The notes beneath the pieces are model-generated. The model did no database searches. It was not told where the DNA came from and saw only the letters and a program-made list of their open reading frames with translations. The position numbers and the translations under genes were made by a program. 64,000 nucleotides of DNA from Rhabdophis nuchalis (Eukaryota; Chordata; Lepidosauria; Squamata; Natricidae): positions 79,384,715-79,448,714 of the forward strand of contig CM077646.1 in assembly GCA_039707465.1 (NCBI GenBank). Reading direction: 5' to 3'. Positions 1,778 through 63,863 of this stretch are shown piece after piece (within the stretch, counting starts at the first letter, position 1; every line of letters begins with the position of its first letter).

Positions 1778-2431
1778 GTAATATTTGTGATATTAAATGC
1801 AAACTCATACAGGACAAAAACTCATGATAGATTTCAGTGACATGTGTACATGGAATACATGGCATACATTGAATTACAATTACATAAATTTTAATATGGA
1901 AAATATCTTGCTCCAAGTAGCTTGTCTGTATCCAGTTTGTTTTCTTGTAATATTACAATTTAATATTACAATTAAATTCATTTAAGATTACCTTTTAATA
2001 TTACAAAAGAGAAAGATAGAGAGAAGAGAACTGCACATCATGATTATTTTAAGGATTGGACTTTGGAGATCAGAACCATAATATTCTTGAAGAACTTCTA
2101 TAAAGTTTTCTGAACTAATTAAGATCTTCTCAAACCAATTTTGTATCTTGCGCACAAATCATACAATGGCACTTGCTTTTACTCTGAGATGTTTTGGAGA
2201 CAAATATTCCAAAATGCTTTGAAACACTTGGGACCCAACTACTTCCCTCACCCAGGGGGACAGAGGGTTGGATTGGGGGGGGGGGGGCAACATTGTGGGA
2301 ATCATGGTAAAGTTTGCTTGAATAAGAAGAAGTTAATAATAAAATCATAGAAATATGTTTACTTAATCTAGGTTTAATAATGTGTGGTAGTCCAACCTAT
2401 ATATTTAGGGGAATAGCACAAGCACTTAGAC

Positions 2432-2647
<216 letters not shown>

Positions 2648-2881
2648 GTAGGTTTTGGTTTATTCGGGTCTTTTCCCGTGTAAAATTAAAAGTGTTTTGG
2701 CAACGTTTCGACGGGATCACACCCATCATCAGGCTGGTGCCTTTGGTTTCTTTACTCTCAAGAAACCAAAGGCACCAGTCTGATGATGACGGGTGTGATC
2801 CCATCGAAACGTTGCCAAAACACTTTTAATTTTACATGGGAAAAGACCCGAATAAACCAAAACCTACATACCTACACACGT
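2648..2881. mobile_element. Foldback element B1 (family B, hammerhead-like core)
   Basis: Inverted repeat with arms 2648-2751 and 2761-2867 around a 9-nt spacer. The arms are nearly identical; the left lacks three bases (GTC) present in the right. The right arm carries CTGATGA (2780-2786) and GAAAC (2806-2810) separated by a partly self-complementary segment, which resembles a hammerhead core. It continues rightwards into 'cgtgaaaatctacgaaa', the shared end of family B (also at 44.6, 55.8 and 63.8 kb). Affinity to Penelope-like elements is possible but not shown. Confidence 0.6.
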
Positions 2882-2904
2882 GAAAATCTACGAAAACTCA
2901 CTGT

Positions 2905-3036
2905 TCCACAACACCCTGTTAGGGCCCCAGTTAAGAGAGGAGACATACTGTTTCTTTTTCTGCCTTTTGGCTCATCACCAAAGACCATCTAGACAGAAAG
3001 CCATGAATTCCGTTGTGTGAATTTTTTAATATATGT
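2905..3036 (+). repeat. Module X (recurrent about 120-bp unit beside family A)
   Basis: It shares 'ggctcatcacca', 'agaccat..agacagaa' and 'gccatga' with 62505-62655, and more weakly with 56030-56140. At two of the three loci it runs straight into a family A segment through 'tgtgttagttttat', which suggests it belongs to a larger composite element. Confidence 0.5.
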
Positions 3037-3073
3037 GTTAGTTTTATGAGCTGATCAATAAATAAATCAGAGA

Positions 3074-3120
3074 GACTAGGATAGATCTATTTCGAGCTTT
3101 TTAGCTCTCATCAGCTAGTC
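3074..3120 (-). ncRNA. Type I hammerhead ribozyme (mirror copy)
   Basis: Exact reverse complement of the ribozyme at 3155-3201, so the same fold forms in a minus-strand transcript. Confidence 0.8.
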
Positions 3121-3154
3121 ATACTCTTACTGGTTCAAATCCCAGTAAGAGTAT

Positions 3155-3201
3155 GACTAGCTGATGAGAGCTAAAAAGCTCGAAATAGATCTATCCTAGT
3201 C
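3155..3201 (+). ncRNA. Type I hammerhead self-cleaving ribozyme
   Basis: All conserved parts are in order. Stem I 5' strand is GACTAG (3155-3160). The core CTGATGA is 3161-3167. Stem II is GAGCT/AGCTC around an AAAA loop (3168-3181). GAAA is 3182-3185. Stem III is a short ATA/TAT pair around GATC. The cleavage triplet AUC ends at 3195, and the stem I 3' strand CTAGTC (3196-3201) is the perfect complement of GACTAG. Predicted cleavage is after C3195. The short stem III with an open stem I is the layout known from retroelement hammerheads. Activity and transcription are unproven. Confidence 0.85.
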
Positions 3202-3238
3202 TCTCTGATTTATTTATTGATCAGCTCATAAAACTAAC

Positions 3239-3327
3239 ACACACACACACACACACACATATATCTATATCTATATCTATAATTGTTTCACTCTGGTCTC
3301 TCTATTTATTGATCAGCTCATAAAAAC

Positions 3328-3369
<42 letters not shown>
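3239..3369. repeat. (CA)n tracts with a second family A tail
   Basis: A CA tract follows the A1 tail (3237-3260). A partial family A tail ('tattgatcagctcataaaaactaa', about 3304-3329) is then followed by a second CA tract (3330-3370). Both CA tracts start at the same tail position. Confidence 0.85.
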
Positions 3370-3376
<7 letters not shown>

Positions 3377-3572
3377 ACTTCACAGTGCTTTACAGCCCTC
3401 TCTAAGCGGTTTACAGAGTCAGCATATTGCCCCTAACAATCTGGGTCCTCATTTACTGACCTTGGAAAGATGGGAGGTTGAATCAACCTTGAGCCCCATC
3501 AAGATCAAACTCCAGACTGTGGACAGAGTTGGCTACTGCATTATAACCACTGTGCCGCCAGGATTCGGGCTT
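3370..3572 (-). mobile_element. tRNA-derived SINE (snake type)
   Basis: Read on the minus strand it has a tRNA-like head (A-box-like TGGCGGCACAGTGG, from 3548-3560), a body with 'ggttgattcaacc' and 'aatgaggaccca', and a tail with 'agggctgtaaagcactgtgaa'. The same tail occurs at 14160, 29740 and 41150. Its mobilising LINE is not identified here. Confidence 0.7.
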
Positions 3573-3699
3573 TATTTTTTATATTTGTTTCTTTGTAGTG
3601 CCCAAAATAGTTATATTCCTGTCATTAGCAATATATTTGGATTGTATACGCACTCCATTACCTGTTAGCTGTACTGTTTATTTTTTCTTCTGCATTTAG

Positions 3700-3809
3700 C
3701 AAGAGTTGGTCCATCAGTACCACGGCAAGACAGACCAGTCCGAGAAGGCACAAGAGTTGCTTCTATTGAAACTGGACTGGCAGCAGCTGCTGCCAAATTA
3801 TCTCAGCAG
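3700..3809 (+). CDS. PHF2: PHF2 coding exon (exon 2 of 4 here)
   Basis: Two bases complete the Ala codon split from the preceding exon. The frame then reads [16 protein letters not shown] and [17 protein letters not shown], a segment characteristic of vertebrate PHF2. The acceptor is TTTAG (ending 3699) and the donor is GTGAGC (from 3810). The exon ends exactly on a codon boundary, matching the phase of the next exon. This part of the protein is basic, alanine-rich and probably unstructured, and no catalytic residue lies here. Confidence 0.93.
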
Positions 3810-4984
3810 GTGAGCTCTCCAAACAGGGGCCAACCATCGCTTTCCCAAAATGTTGATTTCATGGAACATTGTTGTCCATGAACAAATTACTAATGAGAAG
3901 ATTTATCAAAGGAGGCCCTGCTTTTGATTTAAATAGTTATTCTATTTTACGGTCCTCAGAATTATATGGAAAACCAGCCAATGCTCAGTGTTGTCTCATT
4001 TTGAGAGCTGTGCTTGGAGTGCCATGTTAGTCTTTCAAATGGAAGGACTTTTTGGAATTGATATTGATTTCACCTTCTAAAGAATAGTGCAGATACCTGA
4101 AGGCAGCCCCTGATCTGCTGCTCCCCTTGCCACTCTGCCTCTGTTGCTATTTGGTTCTCCTTTTCTCCTCACAATCCCTCTACTCACTGCTTCTCCAATG
4201 AGGCAGCTCATTGCACACACTTACTCTCCAGGTGGCTACCCCAGAAATGTCCTTCTGGGTTGTTTTCAGCCCAGTTCAGGTAAACATGCTACAGCGCGTT
4301 GATCTAATGCACCTATTAGAGGACTACACATAGGGCTGCAAAGTAAACTTCAGATTGCTGCAAACCTTCATCCCAAAGGTATTTTTTTCCAAAAGGCAGC
4401 TGGATTATCTTGGTGTTTTTTCTGCTATCAGTTTTTGAAGTTGTATCAATTGATCTGCACTGAGGATTTTTGGACAATAAATGTGGTGTCATTTCAGAAA
4501 CCAGTTCTGCACTTATTTTGGGCTGATATCATTATTTCACATCACTTCTCGATGAAGTCCATAGCTTTCTGATTTTGATTTGTTTGTTTGTTTTTAAGTG
4601 TAGGGGCTGTCTAGCACGGTAGCATAATATGCATAACATCTAAAAGCTAAATACTGCATTTCGTTCCTTAATATTTTGTCAGTATTTTTTCCTGTATCAC
4701 AATGGAATCTCGTGATTTCTAAAAAGTATAAACCAGTCCTAATCATTAATATGTTTTCAGAAACCTTAAAATACTTACAGAGATACAACACACACCATTC
4801 ATGGAAAAACTTGCATAACAGGCAAATATCAGAGGAATATTTTTAGGATCAACACCCATGATAGGTTCTGGAAAATCAAATTATTGACAAATAATTTGGT
4901 GTGAGATTAGAAACGATCAGCTCTTTGTATATATATTTAAAAATCCTCAATTTTGCCACTTGGTCTGCATTTTTCCTAATGCTC

Positions 4985-22826: not shown

Positions 22827-24492
22827 ACCTGGAGGAAATTGATTATCTAGACCCGCGCCAGTCCGGCTTCTGACCCGGTCACAGCACCGAGACGGCATTG
22901 GTTGCGTTGGTGGATGATCTTTGGAGGGCACAGGATAGAGGGTGCTCCTCTATCCTGGTCCTATTAGACCTCTCAGCGGCTTTTTATACCATCGACCATG
23001 GTATCCTATTGCACCGACTGGGGGGGTTGGGGTGGGAGGCACTGTGTTACGGTGGTTCTCGTCCTACCTCTCCGGTCGGTCACAATTTGTGTTGGCAGGA
23101 GGGCAGAGGTCGACCTCGAGACCCCTCATATGCGGGGTCCCTCAGGGGTCGGTCCTCTCGCCTCTCCTGTTCAACACCTATATGAAGCCGCTGGGCGAGA
23201 TCATCCGTGGTTTTGGGGGAGAATACCATCTGTACGCTGATGACACTCAGCTGTACATATCTACCCCAAACCACCCCAACGATGCTGCCGAGGTGATGTC
23301 CCGGTGTCTGGAGGCTGTTCGGGTCTGGAAGTAACAAACTCAAGCTCAACCTGTCCAAGACCGAGTGGCTGTGGTTTCCGGCACCCCGGTTTAGCCAGGT
23401 AAGTCCAACACTGGCCATTGGGGGCGAATTATTGGCCCTCGTGGAGAGGGCGTGCAATTTGGGTGTCCTCCTGGACTCCCGGCTGTCCATGGAAGATCAT
23501 GTGACAGCCGTGGCCAGGAGGGTGTTTTACCAGGTACGCCTGGTTCGCCAGTTGCGCCCCTTACTAGACCGGGACGCCCTTCACACAGTCACTCAAGCAC
23601 TGGTCACTTCCCGTCTGGACTACTGTAATGCTCTCTACATGGGGCTCCCCTTGAGGAGAGGGCGCGCAATTTGGATGTCCTCCTGGACTCCCGGCTGTCC
23701 ATGGAAGATCATGTGACAGCCGTGGCCAGGAAGGCATTTTACCAGGTACGCCTGGTTCGCCAGTTGCGCCCCTTACTAGACCGGGACGCCCTTTGCACAG
23801 TCACTCAAGCACTGGTCACTTCCCGTCTGGACTACTGTAATGCTCTCCCCATGGGGCTCCCCGAAGGTTACAGCTAGTTCAGAACGTGGCCGCGCGGGTG
23901 ATTATGGAAGCCTCAAGGCGTTCCCATATAACACCTGTACTGCGCGAGCTGCACTGGCTGCCTGTGGCCTTTCGGGTGCACTTCAAGGTGTTGATCACCA
24001 TCTTTAAAGCGCTCCATGGCTCGGGGCCTAGTTATATGCGAGACCGTCTCCTGCCTCATACATCCCTTCGACCGATCCGCTCCCATAGAGAGGGTCTTCT
24101 CCGGGTGCCGTCGGCCGGTCAATGCCGGTTGGCAACGCCCAGGGGAAAGGCCTTCTCTGTGGCGGGCCCTACCCTCTGGAATGACCTGCCTCCCGATCTC
24201 CGTACCACCTCGGACCTCCGCCTTTTCCACCAGCGTTTAAAAACGCACCTGTTTCAGCAAGCCGGCTTAAGGTAATCCACCCGATAAATGACTGTTAGTT
24301 GCACAAATTTTTAATTAGAGGGTTTTTAAACAATATTTTTAGCGCAGGAGTATTAGGTTTAATAGGGTTTTAGGATGTTATGTATTTTGTATTGTATATT
24401 GTGTTTTTAAATTTCCTGTGTGCTGCCCTGGGTCCTGTGTAGGAGATAGGTGCGGGATATAAATTTAATAAAATCTAAAATCTAAAATCTAA
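22827..24492 (+). pseudogene. L2-clade LINE copy D, with internal duplication
   Basis: Covers RT from just before QSGF through the end of ORF2, then a 3' UTR and an (AAAATCT)n tail. GVPQGSVLSPLLF and YADD are readable, but frameshifts separate the segments. The main ones are near 23000, 23330 and 23880. A 212-bp internal tandem duplication adds a further break. Confidence 0.92.
23444..23867 (+). repeat. 212-bp tandem duplication inside L2 copy D
   Basis: 23444-23655 and 23656-23867 are almost identical, each starting GAGAGGGCG and ending ATGGGGCTCCCC. They span the ORF2 segment from ERAxNL to MGLPL. The junction lies within 'ccttgaggagagggcg', where short GAGAGG/GAGG homology could have driven slippage or unequal exchange. 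Confidence 0.93.
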
Positions 24493-43365: not shown

Positions 43366-43529
43366 TTTTCATCATTCCCGTATTCCTTGAACTGCTTAAG
43401 ATTAATTAGTCAGGAATTAATTCCTGAGTAATCTTAAAGAAGAAAGACAATCTAGGTAAAACAATTCAAGCTTTTTCAGAAAGTAGAATCAGATTTGTAT
43501 GTTGCCACTGAATAGTACATTCTTTATAT

Positions 43530-43690
<161 letters not shown>

Positions 43691-44199: not shown

Positions 44200-44700
44200 A
44201 TCTTTTCCCCAATTGAACGTTTCGACAAGATCTCACTTGCCATCTTCAGGCTTCGGTCTGTGGCTGCATAGATGCCTCCCTTCCTTAAATCTTGGGGGGT
44301 GGAGGGGTGGAGTTCTGACTCTGTTGCTGTGAGTGGGTTGATTGGCTGTGCAGCTGCATCATGAATGGTAGATTGATGCTGATTGGTCCTATCTGTGTGT
44401 TTCTCCACAGATAGGACCAATCAGCAACAATCTACCAATCTTGATGCAGCTGCACAGCCAATCAACCCACTCACAGCAACAGAGTCAGCACTCTACCACC
44501 ACCACCCGCCCACCAAGATTTAAGTAAGGGCAGCATCTACGCAGCCACAGACCGAAGTCTGAAGAAGGCAAGTGAGATCCTGCCAAATCGTTCAATCTCA
44601 TTCTTACATGGGAAAACACCCATATACAACAAGACCAGCATACCTACATCCGTGAAAATCTACGAATATATACATATATTTGTAGATTTTCAAATATATA
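44200..44700. mobile_element. Foldback element B2 (family B, about 190-bp arms)
   Basis: Imperfect inverted repeat, arms about 44205-44397 and 44406-44600, with an 8-nt spacer. The left arm holds the reversed 'gaagatggcaagtgagatct' and 'gtcgaaacgtt'. The right arm has CTGAAGA and a mutated CAAAT in place of GAAAC. The right side continues to 'ccgtgaaaatctacgaa', the family end. It carries an extra roughly 150-bp segment per arm not seen in B1 or B5. Confidence 0.7.
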
Positions 44701-55800: not shown

Positions 55801-55816
55801 CACACACACATTTGTT

Positions 55817-55891
55817 TTCGTAGATTTTCACGGGTGTAGGTATGCTGGTCTTGTTGTATTAGGAAAACACCCGAATACAATAAGACCAGCA

Positions 55892-55920
<29 letters not shown>
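55817..55920. mobile_element. Foldback element B3 (terminal part of family B) with (CATA)n
   Basis: 'ttttcgtagattttcacggg' plus 'gtaggtatgctggtcttg' is followed by a reversed 'aataagaccagcatac'. It runs into about seven CATA units. Confidence 0.7.
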
Positions 55921-55922
<2 letters not shown>

Positions 55923-55924
55923 TC

Positions 55925-56005
55925 GAACCTAGGAAGTATTCCATGTGAGGCAGTTGTAATTGCCACTAGGCCACAGGTTCTCCTCCTTGATCAGCTGAGC
56001 CAGGG
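55925..56005 (-). mobile_element. tRNA-like SINE head fragment
   Basis: The minus strand has A box TGGCCTAGTGGC and B box AGGTTCGAAT. It ends near 56005, next to a module X relative. Confidence 0.6.
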
Positions 56006-56029
56006 GAATAAGTATATATTGTGTCACAG

Positions 56030-56140
56030 CACCCTGGTATGCCCCAAATATGGGAGGGAGCAGAACTGCTTCCCTTTTCCGTTTATCGGCTCACCCTAGG
56101 AGCCATCCAGGCAGAAAGCAATTTTTTCATTGTTATATTT
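56030..56140 (+). repeat. Module X relative
   Basis: 'ggctcaccctaggagccatc' and 'caggcagaaagc' align with the module at 2905-3036 and 62505-62655. Confidence 0.4.
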
Positions 56141-56199
56141 GTGCTACATTTTTGTGTAAATATATATAGCGAGTGCTACCAGCAAAACATGGGCATTAA

Positions 56200-59174: not shown

Positions 59175-59309
59175 CAGGGGTCTCCAACCTTTGCAACTTT
59201 AAGTCTGAAGGACTTCAGCTCCCAGACTTCTCCAGCCATCTTTGCTGGCTGGAGAATTCTGGGAGCTGAAGTCCTTCACACTTAAAGTTGCAAAGGTTGG
59301 AGATCCCTG
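59175..59309. mobile_element. Palindromic hAT MITE
   Basis: Left CAGGGGTCTCCAACCTTTGC, right GCAAAGGTTGGAGATCCCTG, with 'ctccagccat..gctggctggag' at the centre. Full-length, but no clear target octamer. Confidence 0.78.
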
Positions 59310-62504: not shown

Positions 62505-62655
62505 CTGTTTTGTCTGGCAGGACTGATGTTTTGTCTAAAGCATTTAAGGGAGGAAGCATACTGCTTTCCCCTTCTCCCTTTCGGCTCATCACCAGAGACC
62601 ATCCAGACAGAAGGCCATGAGTTCCATTGTGTGATTTTTTTAAATATGTGTGTTA
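62505..62655 (+). repeat. Module X
   Basis: 'tttcggctcatcaccagaga', 'ccatccagacagaaggccat' and 'ccattgtgtgattttttt' match 2905-3036 and lead into 'tgtgttagttttat', as at the first locus. Confidence 0.6.
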
Positions 62656-62659
62656 GTTT

Positions 62660-62893
62660 TATTGTATTGTTTTTTATATTTATATATATTTATATTGATT
62701 TTTATTTTTTAATATTGTATTATTTATTGTATGATTGTATTGTATTTATTGTATTGCCTGATATGCAATACAGCCCCGGTTCGAGTCCCAGTAGAGGGTA
62801 TGGCCAGCTGATGACAGCTAATAAACTCGAAATAGATCTATCCTGGTCTAATTTATTTATTGATCAGCTCATAAAACTAACACACACACACAC
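62660..62893 (+). mobile_element. Family A element, copy A3
   Basis: AT-rich lead-in, then part of a tRNA-like head ('gcctgatatgcaatacag', B box GGTTCGAGTCC), the ribozyme at 62802-62848, the tail 'tgatcagctcataaaactaa' and (CA)n. The lead-in and head recur at 63364-63480, giving a local duplication 687 bp apart. Confidence 0.8.
62802..62848 (+). ncRNA. Hammerhead ribozyme, stem II weakened
   Basis: Stem I GGCCAG/CTGGTC (one G-U), core CTGATGA, GAAA, stem III ATA/TAT and triplet AUC ending at 62842. Stem II is CAGCT..AACTC with two mismatches, so activity is doubtful. Confidence 0.65.
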
Positions 62894-62897
62894 ATGT

Positions 62898-62985
62898 ATA
62901 TAGCATGGAGATGTTATTGCAACGTTTTGACACGATCTCACTTGTCATCATCAGGCAGGCTTCTGTCTGTGACAGTGTGTATATA
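62898..62985 (-). mobile_element. Family B fragment B4
   Basis: The minus strand reads CCTGATGATGACAAGTGAGA, then 'tcgtgtcaaaacgttgcaat'. The hammerhead-like core has AAAA in place of GAAA. Followed by (TA)n/(GT)n to 63023. Confidence 0.6.
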
Positions 62986-63049
62986 TATATATACGTGTGT
63001 GTGTGTGTGTGTGTGTGTGTGTTAGATTTTTAAGGGCTGAAAATAAAGA

Positions 63050-63096
63050 GACCAGGATGGATCCATTTCAGGCTTATTAGCCTTCTTCAGCTGGCC
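63050..63096 (-). ncRNA. Type I hammerhead ribozyme (mirror copy)
   Basis: Exact reverse complement of 63294-63340. Confidence 0.8.
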
Positions 63097-63293
63097 ATAC
63101 TCCTTCTACTGGGATTTGAACCGGTGCCCTCCAGCATATGAGGCAAGCCTCTCTATGCCTTGAGCTATCCGGTATCCCTGATACATGTCCTGTAAATTGG
63201 CTGATGTATCAGGGATACCGGATAGCTCAAGGCATAGAGAGGCTTGCCTCATATGCTGGAGGGCACCGGTTCAAATCCCAGTAGAAGGAGTAT

Positions 63294-63340
63294 GGCCAGC
63301 TGAAGAAGGCTAATAAGCCTGAAATGGATCCATCCTGGTC
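63294..63340 (+). ncRNA. Type I hammerhead ribozyme
   Basis: Stem I GGCCAG (63294-63299) with CTGGTC (63335-63340), one G-U pair. Core CTGAAGA (63300-63306). Stem II AGGCT/AGCCT around AATA. GAAA (63321-63324). Stem III ATG/CAT around GATC. Triplet AUC, with cleavage after 63334. Stems I, II and III all differ from the 3155-3201 copy yet stay paired. Confidence 0.87.
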
Positions 63341-63363
63341 TCTTTATTTTCAGCCCTTAAAAA

Positions 63364-63563
63364 TATTTATATATATTTATATTGATTTTTATTTTTTAAT
63401 ATTGTATTATTTATTGTATTATTGTATTGTATTTATTGTATTGCCTGATATGCAATACAGCCCCGGTTCGAATCCCAGTAAGGTTTTGGCTAGCTGATGA
63501 GAGCTAAAAATCTCGAAATAGATCTATACTAGTCTCCCTGATTTATTGATCAGCTCATAAAAC

Positions 63564-63605
<42 letters not shown>
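63364..63605 (+). mobile_element. Family A element, copy A4
   Basis: Same lead-in and partial tRNA-like head as A3 (B box GGTTCGAATCC), the ribozyme at 63488-63534, the tail 'tgatcagctcataaaactaa' and a (CA)n of about 36 bp. Confidence 0.8.
63488..63534 (+). ncRNA. Hammerhead ribozyme, one stem II mismatch
   Basis: Stem I GGCTAG/CTAGTC (one G-U), core CTGATGA, stem II GAGCT/ATCTC (one mismatch), GAAA, stem III ATA/TAT, and triplet AUA, a permitted NUH. Confidence 0.72.
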
Positions 63606-63607
<2 letters not shown>

Positions 63608-63862
63608 GCTTTCGTAGATTTTCACGGGTGTAGGTATGCTGGTGTTGCCATCCTCGGGTGTTTTCCCGTGTATATAGCATGGAATCTTTTTTGCAACATT
63701 TCGACAAGATCTCACTTGTCATCCAACAGTCATAGACCGAAGCCTGAGGATGACAAGTGAGATCTTGTCGAAACGTTGCAAAAAAAATCCATGCTATATA
63801 CACGGGAAAATCCCCGAAGCCAGCAATGCCAGCATACCTACATCCGTGAAAATCTACGAAAA
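63606..63862. mobile_element. Foldback element B5 (family B)
   Basis: Inverted repeat of about 115-bp arms. The right arm reads CTGAGGA, T, GACAAG/CTTGTC as a 6-bp stem around TGAGAT, then GAAACGTT. The end 'cgtgaaaatctacgaaa' runs into (TA)n. Stem I is not convincing, so this is a hammerhead-like core only. Confidence 0.7.
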
Positions 63863-63863
63863 C

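Follow-up and report, generated by a model that had tools for sequence, protein, structure and literature searches.

A putative Penelope-dependent retrozyme with a tRNA-like head in the genome of the snake Rhabdophis nuchalis

The window analysed here is a 64,000-nucleotide stretch of Rhabdophis nuchalis DNA (assembly GCA_039707465.1, contig CM077646.1, positions 79,384,715 to 79,448,714, forward strand), and coordinates are counted from its first letter unless another locus is named. Near its right end lies a perfect 161-bp inverted repeat, with arms at 63026-63186 and 63204-63364 separated by a 17-nt spacer. The right arm belongs to a young retrozyme copy (63187..63364, plus strand) that is 100% identical to the repeating unit described below and consists of the end of one unit followed by unit positions 1 to 152, unit 1 being 63213. 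This copy carries word matches to an A box (TAGCTCAAGG, 63223..63232, plus strand) and a B box (GGTTCAAATCC, 63268..63278, plus strand), then a type I hammerhead at 63294..63340 on the same strand (core at 63300, predicted cut after C63334), identified by structure scan and covariation. The left arm belongs to a young copy on the minus strand (63018..63186, hammerhead core 63090 to 63056), whose outer end is site A, one of two sites at which 3' ends cluster, followed by (CA)n; a repeat scan of the window sequence places a (TG)n/(CA)n microsatellite at 62995..63022. An earlier note on this DNA had described each arm as a 160-bp succession of tRNA-like head, linker, ribozyme, tail and (CA)n. A- and B-box words do lie upstream of a complete hammerhead in both 161-bp arms, but the right arm has no (CA)n, stopping in 'TTAAAAAT' and continuing into AT-rich DNA. 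Nor is (CA)n a fixed tail: it comes after the outer end of the left arm and after each of the copies at 3142, 62760 and 63445, and in other loci the same retrozyme ends abut TA, CA or CATA repeats. Matches to miRNA families at 63130-63260 score below gathering and were set aside as an artefact of the hairpin.

The three further copies in which the same head-ribozyme order had been reported, at 3142, 62760 and 63445, do have a B box and a hammerhead; they lack an A box, retain just the 3' part of the head and represent a different subfamily, subfamily 2. One forms a fold-back with a left arm at 2902..3133 (minus strand, hammerhead core 3114) and a right arm at 3132..3245 (plus strand, B box 3132, hammerhead core 3161); a second perfect fold-back of the window, with 100-bp arms, spans 3034-3241. 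Another occupies 62754..62888 (plus strand) and includes a B box at 62778, the 3' part of the head and the tail up to (CA)n; stem II of its hammerhead is damaged, and a subfamily-2 body lies in the opposite arm (62541..62662, minus strand). The third (63446..63574, plus strand, B box 63465, hammerhead core 63494) has a mismatch in stem II and an A at the cleavage position. Similarity also revealed a tail fragment preceding (CA)n (3303..3338, plus strand), a 79% fragment (43519..43594, minus strand) and an old 68% fragment (55921..56161, minus strand).

Penelope-like elements (PLEs) occur in the same window. Fold-backs lie at 2647..2897, with a minimal hammerhead motif (arms 2647-2752 minus, 2759-2897 plus), at 55814..55902 (55814-55853 minus, 55862-55902 plus) and at 63610..63863, with its right end in (TA)n (63610-63724 minus, 63726-63863 plus). 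A PLE fragment with a minimal hammerhead motif was found by similarity at 62895..62977 (minus strand), and PLE pieces at 44216..44666 (44216-44286 minus, 44522-44666 plus). The window is richer in retrozymes than a 60-kb sample taken at round-number positions (7.6 kb N, 52.4 kb not N), which held one retrozyme place with two blocks and, within its 52.4 kb of known sequence, no PLE end. Two other features of the window are a 212-bp tandem duplication within a CR1 reverse transcriptase copy (23436-23862) and a pair of near-perfect inverted repeats, each 83 bp long and of the same family (837-919 and 59201-59283), which match miRNA models below threshold and are probably a MITE-like element. For one CR1 reverse transcriptase of the window, among 120 relatives listed out of 7783 matches, snakes have the highest identities (Pituophis and Ahaetulla up to 82%, Naja up to 79%, Erythrolamprus 72%), over parts of the query; ranked by score, Pituophis comes before the lizards Varanus and Salvator.

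The repeating unit is about 338 bp long rather than the 160 bp first proposed, and comprises, in order, the tRNA-like head with its A and B boxes, the complete type I hammerhead, a linker and a body. It is arranged both in tandem arrays and in head-to-head fold-backs. The array at locus L009 is a single run of 2619 nt (about 7.8 units) with eight head-ribozyme copies and a period of 337-338 bp, within the 150-450 bp that characterise the tandem units of retrozymes. The unit is too short for an open reading frame with reverse transcriptase (RT) and GIY-YIG domains and encodes no RT; its circular fold is not special (z -1.06). When the 1.92-Gb genome was searched with a 148-bp query, 40 of 1446 first-look candidates were scored and gave 45 matches; 10 of these matches are full-length and 100% identical, on seven contigs, two of the 10 being the window's own arms. 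The copies surveyed come from loci L009-L041, chosen by similarity to the young unit, and from the window. The unit can be aligned over its length in three subfamilies, with a second alignment for the ribozyme of subfamily 2; head and ribozyme are for this reason one element, not neighbours by chance, an outcome that the earlier note had named as refuting its claim of a tRNA-like head fused to a hammerhead. Judged from sequence, head and ribozyme are one real, dispersed and young repeat. By eye, units 5-7 of the L009 array (minus strand, 1902-4524) are identical to units 1-3, and unit 8 is nearly identical to unit 4; either a tetramer was duplicated at the DNA level or a four-unit template was copied twice.

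The head is defined by its boxes. The A- and B-box words are separated by 34-35 nt in nearly all listed copies (exceptions 27, 32 and 36), and the same spacing is seen in the divergent heads of subfamily 2. The window holds two A- plus B-box pairs, versus none in 200 shuffles, and five words of the B-box pattern, all from the retrozyme family (shuffles: mean 0.4, maximum 2). The Rfam tRNA model RF00005 gave no match to the heads of the young copy, L025 and L034 even at E<=10, and ARAGORN called 0 tRNAs in the window; the term tRNA-like therefore rests on the boxes and their spacing. The boxes were judged against the Pol III box consensus, and the head may act as a Pol III promoter.

Applying the hammerhead core rules, the structural scan found five hammerheads in the window, versus a mean of 0.025 and a maximum of 1 in 40 dinucleotide shuffles. 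Among the ribozyme-spanning matches in L009-L041 and the window, the core is kept in 81 of 85, and core and stems together in 71 of 85. Covariation was tested on 27 of the 32 distinct ribozyme rows, five being omitted, with 459 cells and 500 shuffles. Paired cells amount to 96.7% of the 459, compared with 35-55% when the alignment is slid, figures that are favoured because the structure was drawn from those same related rows. Double-change cells number 44 versus 16.4 in shuffles, none of the 500 reaching that value, although the relatedness of the rows may inflate such measures as do stand out; neither the pairs with double changes (6 versus 4.7, reached in 49 of 500 shuffles) nor the further pair types (15 versus 15.0) stand out. 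Stem III has 3 bp, with one covarying pair. Structure scan and covariation thus support a complete type I hammerhead in the unit, and self-cleavage is its predicted function. Rfam returned no match to the young hammerhead (the copy at 63204) at E<=10, also when it was searched alone, and at gathering scores it returned nothing in the window or in four other loci. A scan of viral contigs for the hammerhead and the PLE motif gave no matches. That the ribozyme might come from a PLE had been considered, yet it does not look PLE-derived: it need not be, because it has all the parts of a type I hammerhead, stem III included, whereas the PLE motif is minimal. Since the PLE motifs examined have no real stem III, we regard a derivation from them as unneeded.

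Retrozyme 3' ends cluster at site A (unit about 158) and site B (unit about 306), the two site windows having been defined after the ends had been seen. When the subfamilies are pooled, 57 of the 100 free 3' ends fall at A or B, and many of the other 43 appear by eye to be alignment stops in divergent copies. By a strict measure, a microsatellite adjoins 16 of 29 free A ends and 12 of 28 free B ends; for the remaining 3' ends the figure is 1 of 43, and for free 5' ends 1 of 50. Forty young insertions were compared, of which L021 and L022 seem to be a single insertion that was duplicated; 3' ends lie on both outer sides in 24, on one side in 15 and on neither in 1, this kind of counting having been applied to retrozyme and PLE copies only. 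The 24 two-ended fold-backs are classed by their ends as AB (9), A-other (7), B-other (4), BB (3) and AA (1), so that 37 of 48 fold-back ends lie at A or B and 11 at neither; for one-sided insertions the figure is 13 of 15. In some fold-backs the arms differ (11 mismatches in 173 at L020, 5 in 116 at L035), which suggests separate templates. In others they are identical or nearly so (161 and 100 bp in the window, 66 bp at L029, 1 mismatch in 192 at L032), and these could also be produced by snap-back. As a general origin of the fold-backs, a snap-back hairpin is disfavoured by the combination of A and B ends in 9 of 24 and by the differing arms of some, the identical arms of others notwithstanding. 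At L041:953-1793, the 3' end of a young copy falls at unit 121, next to where the hammerhead is predicted to cut, and (TA)n comes after it.

The PLEs of the same loci insert in a similar form. Of 27 PLE places in retrozyme loci, 18 have two outward 3' ends and 9 have one; the chaining rule, which allowed minus-plus pairs to be linked across as much as 70 nt but linked no plus-minus pairs, favours the two-ended class. Twenty-two of 45 PLE 3' ends lie within 3 nt of '...CTACGAAAAC', 14 lie 27-35 nt upstream, and 28 of the 45 adjoin microsatellites. The two sites are mixed in 10 of the 18 two-ended places, and both ends are at the first site in 4. In the window copy, counting from the ATG in hammerhead stem II, the first site corresponds to ORF+114, which falls within the positions 111-118 nt into the ORF at which the RT of the Anolis PLE PAc starts (Frangieh et al. 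2024, PMC11167929). In PAc, moreover, the sequence between the two RT starts is a 30-40-bp tail, both target strands are cut and extended, AT-rich DNA is preferred, and hammerhead cleavage is unnecessary for insertion in vitro (PMC11167929). The retrozyme matches this PLE insertion form in its internal 3' ends, its inverted or tandem copies and its TA/CA-rich target; as far as its sequence tells, it shares with PAc the AT-rich targets, the two internal starts and the extension of both strands (PMC11167929). PAc differs in being autonomous and in having a hammerhead with stems I and II, whereas the retrozyme encodes no RT and its hammerhead includes a stem III (PMC11167929).

A PLE with an RT domain (52.8 bits) and a GIY-YIG domain (22.2 bits, cut-off 22.6) is present in this genome, its domains lying in L027 and L093, which share the positions C3:38788300-38788400. 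This ORF-bearing PLE is an element separate from the retrozyme. The earlier note had proposed to look for PLEs with the same 3' end. The last approximately 20 nt at retrozyme site A bear a weak likeness to PLE end 1, in a post hoc comparison in which 15 of 4000 window 30-mers score as well; the likeness is absent at site B and in subfamily 2.

Direct joints connect the two families. We searched for PLE 3' ends with GG in the next 9 nt and read all 43 resulting rows, which represent 38 distinct places. The PLE end is followed by a retrozyme in the same orientation in 10 (9 within 15 nt), an inverted retrozyme in 5 (4 within 15 nt), a PLE in the same orientation in 5, an inverted PLE in 3 and neither family in 15. 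By eye, 7 of the 10 same-orientation joints have no clear TA spacer (L054, L062, L065, L066, L068, L088 and L091), a few bases being ambiguous at L065 and L091, where the unit itself starts ATA; TA lies between the elements at L076 and L090, and at L089 the retrozyme starts at 32 nt. Retrozyme site A (29 rows, 27 distinct places) is followed by a retrozyme in the same orientation in 6, an inverted retrozyme in 4, an inverted PLE in 3, a PLE in the same orientation in 3 (one of them, L100, within 15 nt) and neither family in 11. Because the joint patterns pass over ends leading into pure repeats, the counts do not represent rates. At L010, a same-orientation switch from PLE to retrozyme occurs inside the hammerhead, and L014 is a very short PLE/retrozyme fold-back. 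Same-orientation PLE-retrozyme joints are predicted by template jumping. At L059 and L084, a PLE 3' end is joined to the same GC-rich repeat (CTTCCGG.TCCGGCTCCAGCGGCGA...), which is perhaps another passenger.

The lengths of the copied runs bear on the template. We examined 54 runs that end at A or B. The hammerhead cut lies inside 43 of them, 22 are longer than one unit and a single one stops at the cut, suggesting that most templates were uncut multimers or closed circles. Cut linear monomers are accordingly disfavoured as the main template, and the run ends lend no support to a role of cleavage in copying. Only 5 of the 54 have 5' ends near the head start, about chance level, and in the young unit TTTT begins 13 nt past the predicted cut; together these leave Pol III transcripts unsupported as templates. 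Twenty-two of the 54 cDNA 5' ends or head-to-head joints fall at unit 225-280, near the palindromic TCCCCTTAAAGGGA, a clustering that perhaps reflects RT pausing.

Taken together, we think it probable, with a good margin of confidence, that the element is a metazoan-type retrozyme with a tRNA-like head, non-autonomous and copied by the reverse transcriptase of a PLE. The earlier suggestion that it is mobilised by a PLE and not by a LINE fares well in this respect: two-ended fold-backs, two 3' sites and PLE joints make the PLE machinery the likely mobiliser. We lean, by less, towards a fuller picture of a PLE-dependent retrozyme-SINE in an amniote, with a self-cleaving circular or multimeric RNA that the PLE RT would copy from both cut strands. 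The proposed pathway would include binding of the multimeric or circular unit RNA by the PLE reverse transcriptase-endonuclease, which would cut both strands of a TA- or CA-rich target. Both cut strands would then prime cDNA at the internal start sites A and B, and the two cDNAs would be joined head to head to give a fold-back. Tandem or circular RNA that is copied through would yield multi-unit cDNA, and the RT could also jump from retrozyme RNA to PLE RNA. If the element behaves like other animal retrozymes, its hammerhead presumably cleaves multimers into units of 338 nt, which a host ligase would close.

The alternatives differ in the machinery that they invoke. One is a SINE of tRNA origin that a LINE such as CR1 or Bov-B mobilises and whose fold-backs are chance neighbouring insertions. 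This would account for the A and B boxes, and the window does contain several stretches of CR1 reverse transcriptase. It does not account for two outward 3' ends in 24 of 40 insertions, two preferred 3' sites, multi-unit copies and direct joins to PLE ends, and we consider it highly improbable. The copies do not have the monomeric, 5'-truncated form of a SINE whose 3' tail is of LINE type; they occur as tandem units and as two-ended fold-backs, and the monomeric Pol III-type SINE with a CA tail first envisaged thus gives way to a tandem unit of retrozyme type. The insertion form and ends are PLE-like and the two families are often joined, as would also be expected if the unit had arisen by deletion from an autonomous PLE family with the tRNA-like head and the complete hammerhead in its own pLTR. 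The PLE ends examined, however, have a minimal hammerhead motif and no head. Homology among the three subfamilies extends over the whole unit, and none of the copies examined passed into a PLE ORF at a constant position, few flanks being long enough to tell; such a derivation appears very unlikely.

A satellite-like repeat could instead have been spread by DNA processes such as replication template switching and microsatellite recombination, the palindromes being made at the DNA level. The repetition of L009 units 1-4 as units 5-8, the many insertions inside microsatellites and the identical arms of certain fold-backs would fit. We nevertheless hold this to be unlikely in view of the two preferred end points over many loci in a PLE-like arrangement, the different variants and different ends combined in some fold-backs, and the dispersal of copies that are 99-100% identical. 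A non-autonomous retrozyme copied by PLE machinery remains our preferred reading. If it is correct, PLE-type insertion would have its hallmark in the two-ended fold-back, and the enzyme that spreads animal retrozymes would have been identified. The element would moreover provide a substrate, itself non-autonomous, on which the mechanism of PLE insertion could be tested, with checkable marks in one genome: two start sites, two-ended fold-backs and PLE-retrozyme joints.

Related elements are known. In the part of PMC7229834 covered here, animal retrozymes are described as units of 150-450 bp that carry type I hammerheads, lie in tandem and are expressed as circles, and metazoan non-LTR retrozymes are reported in newts, axolotl, mussel and coral; PLEs are put forward as a strong candidate mobiliser (Cervera and de la Pena 2020, PMC7229834). 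A 2020 review states, in the part considered, that no conserved motif reveals the retrozyme partner (PMC7761336). In the covered parts of both papers the enzyme that spreads animal retrozymes is left open (PMC7229834, PMC7761336), and the marks described here bear on that question. With the metazoan retrozymes, so far as that part of PMC7229834 describes them, the snake element shares the type I hammerhead, a non-coding unit (330 and 350 bp in axolotl), tandem copies, coexistence with PLEs and a short stem III closed by a tetraloop. The same part mentions no tRNA-like head and only proposes PLEs (PMC7229834), whereas the snake element has a head, and its insertion ends and joints point to a PLE. 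The Schistosoma repeat Sm-alpha is presented in the portion of PMC2770079 consulted as a SINE-like repeat with a hammerhead, derived from tRNA-Gln-TTG. By its description there, Sm-alpha/Sj-alpha shares with our element the pairing of a tRNA-type head with a hammerhead in a SINE-like repeat; it belongs to a different phylum, and that portion does not mention two-ended fold-backs or PLE joints (PMC2770079). Since Sm-alpha and tandem animal retrozymes had already been described, the element is not the wholly new type that had been suggested. What would be new is the combination of a tRNA-like head, a complete hammerhead and a PLE-type insertion in one amniote element. In the literature searched, which left most subscription papers outside its coverage, we found no report of a tandem retrozyme in a squamate or another amniote.

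The subfamily-2 ribozyme also resembles a hammerhead of the amniote Hammerhead_HH9 model (RF02275), which we take to be one of the conserved intronic amniote hammerheads. In a relaxed Rfam search, this model matches window positions 3147-3215 and their twin with 33.2 bits (E 1.7e-4, window), L025 with 23.1 bits and L034 with 18.2 bits, the gathering score of 52 never being reached. The two share a layout of a stem I with an internal loop, an A-rich loop II and a short stem III. Amniote hammerheads of the HH9-like kind are described as conserved intronic motifs in the part of PMC6155905 covered here, whereas the snake element is a dispersed repeat that scores at most 33.2 bits, below the gathering score. 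HH9 might be descended from such an element.
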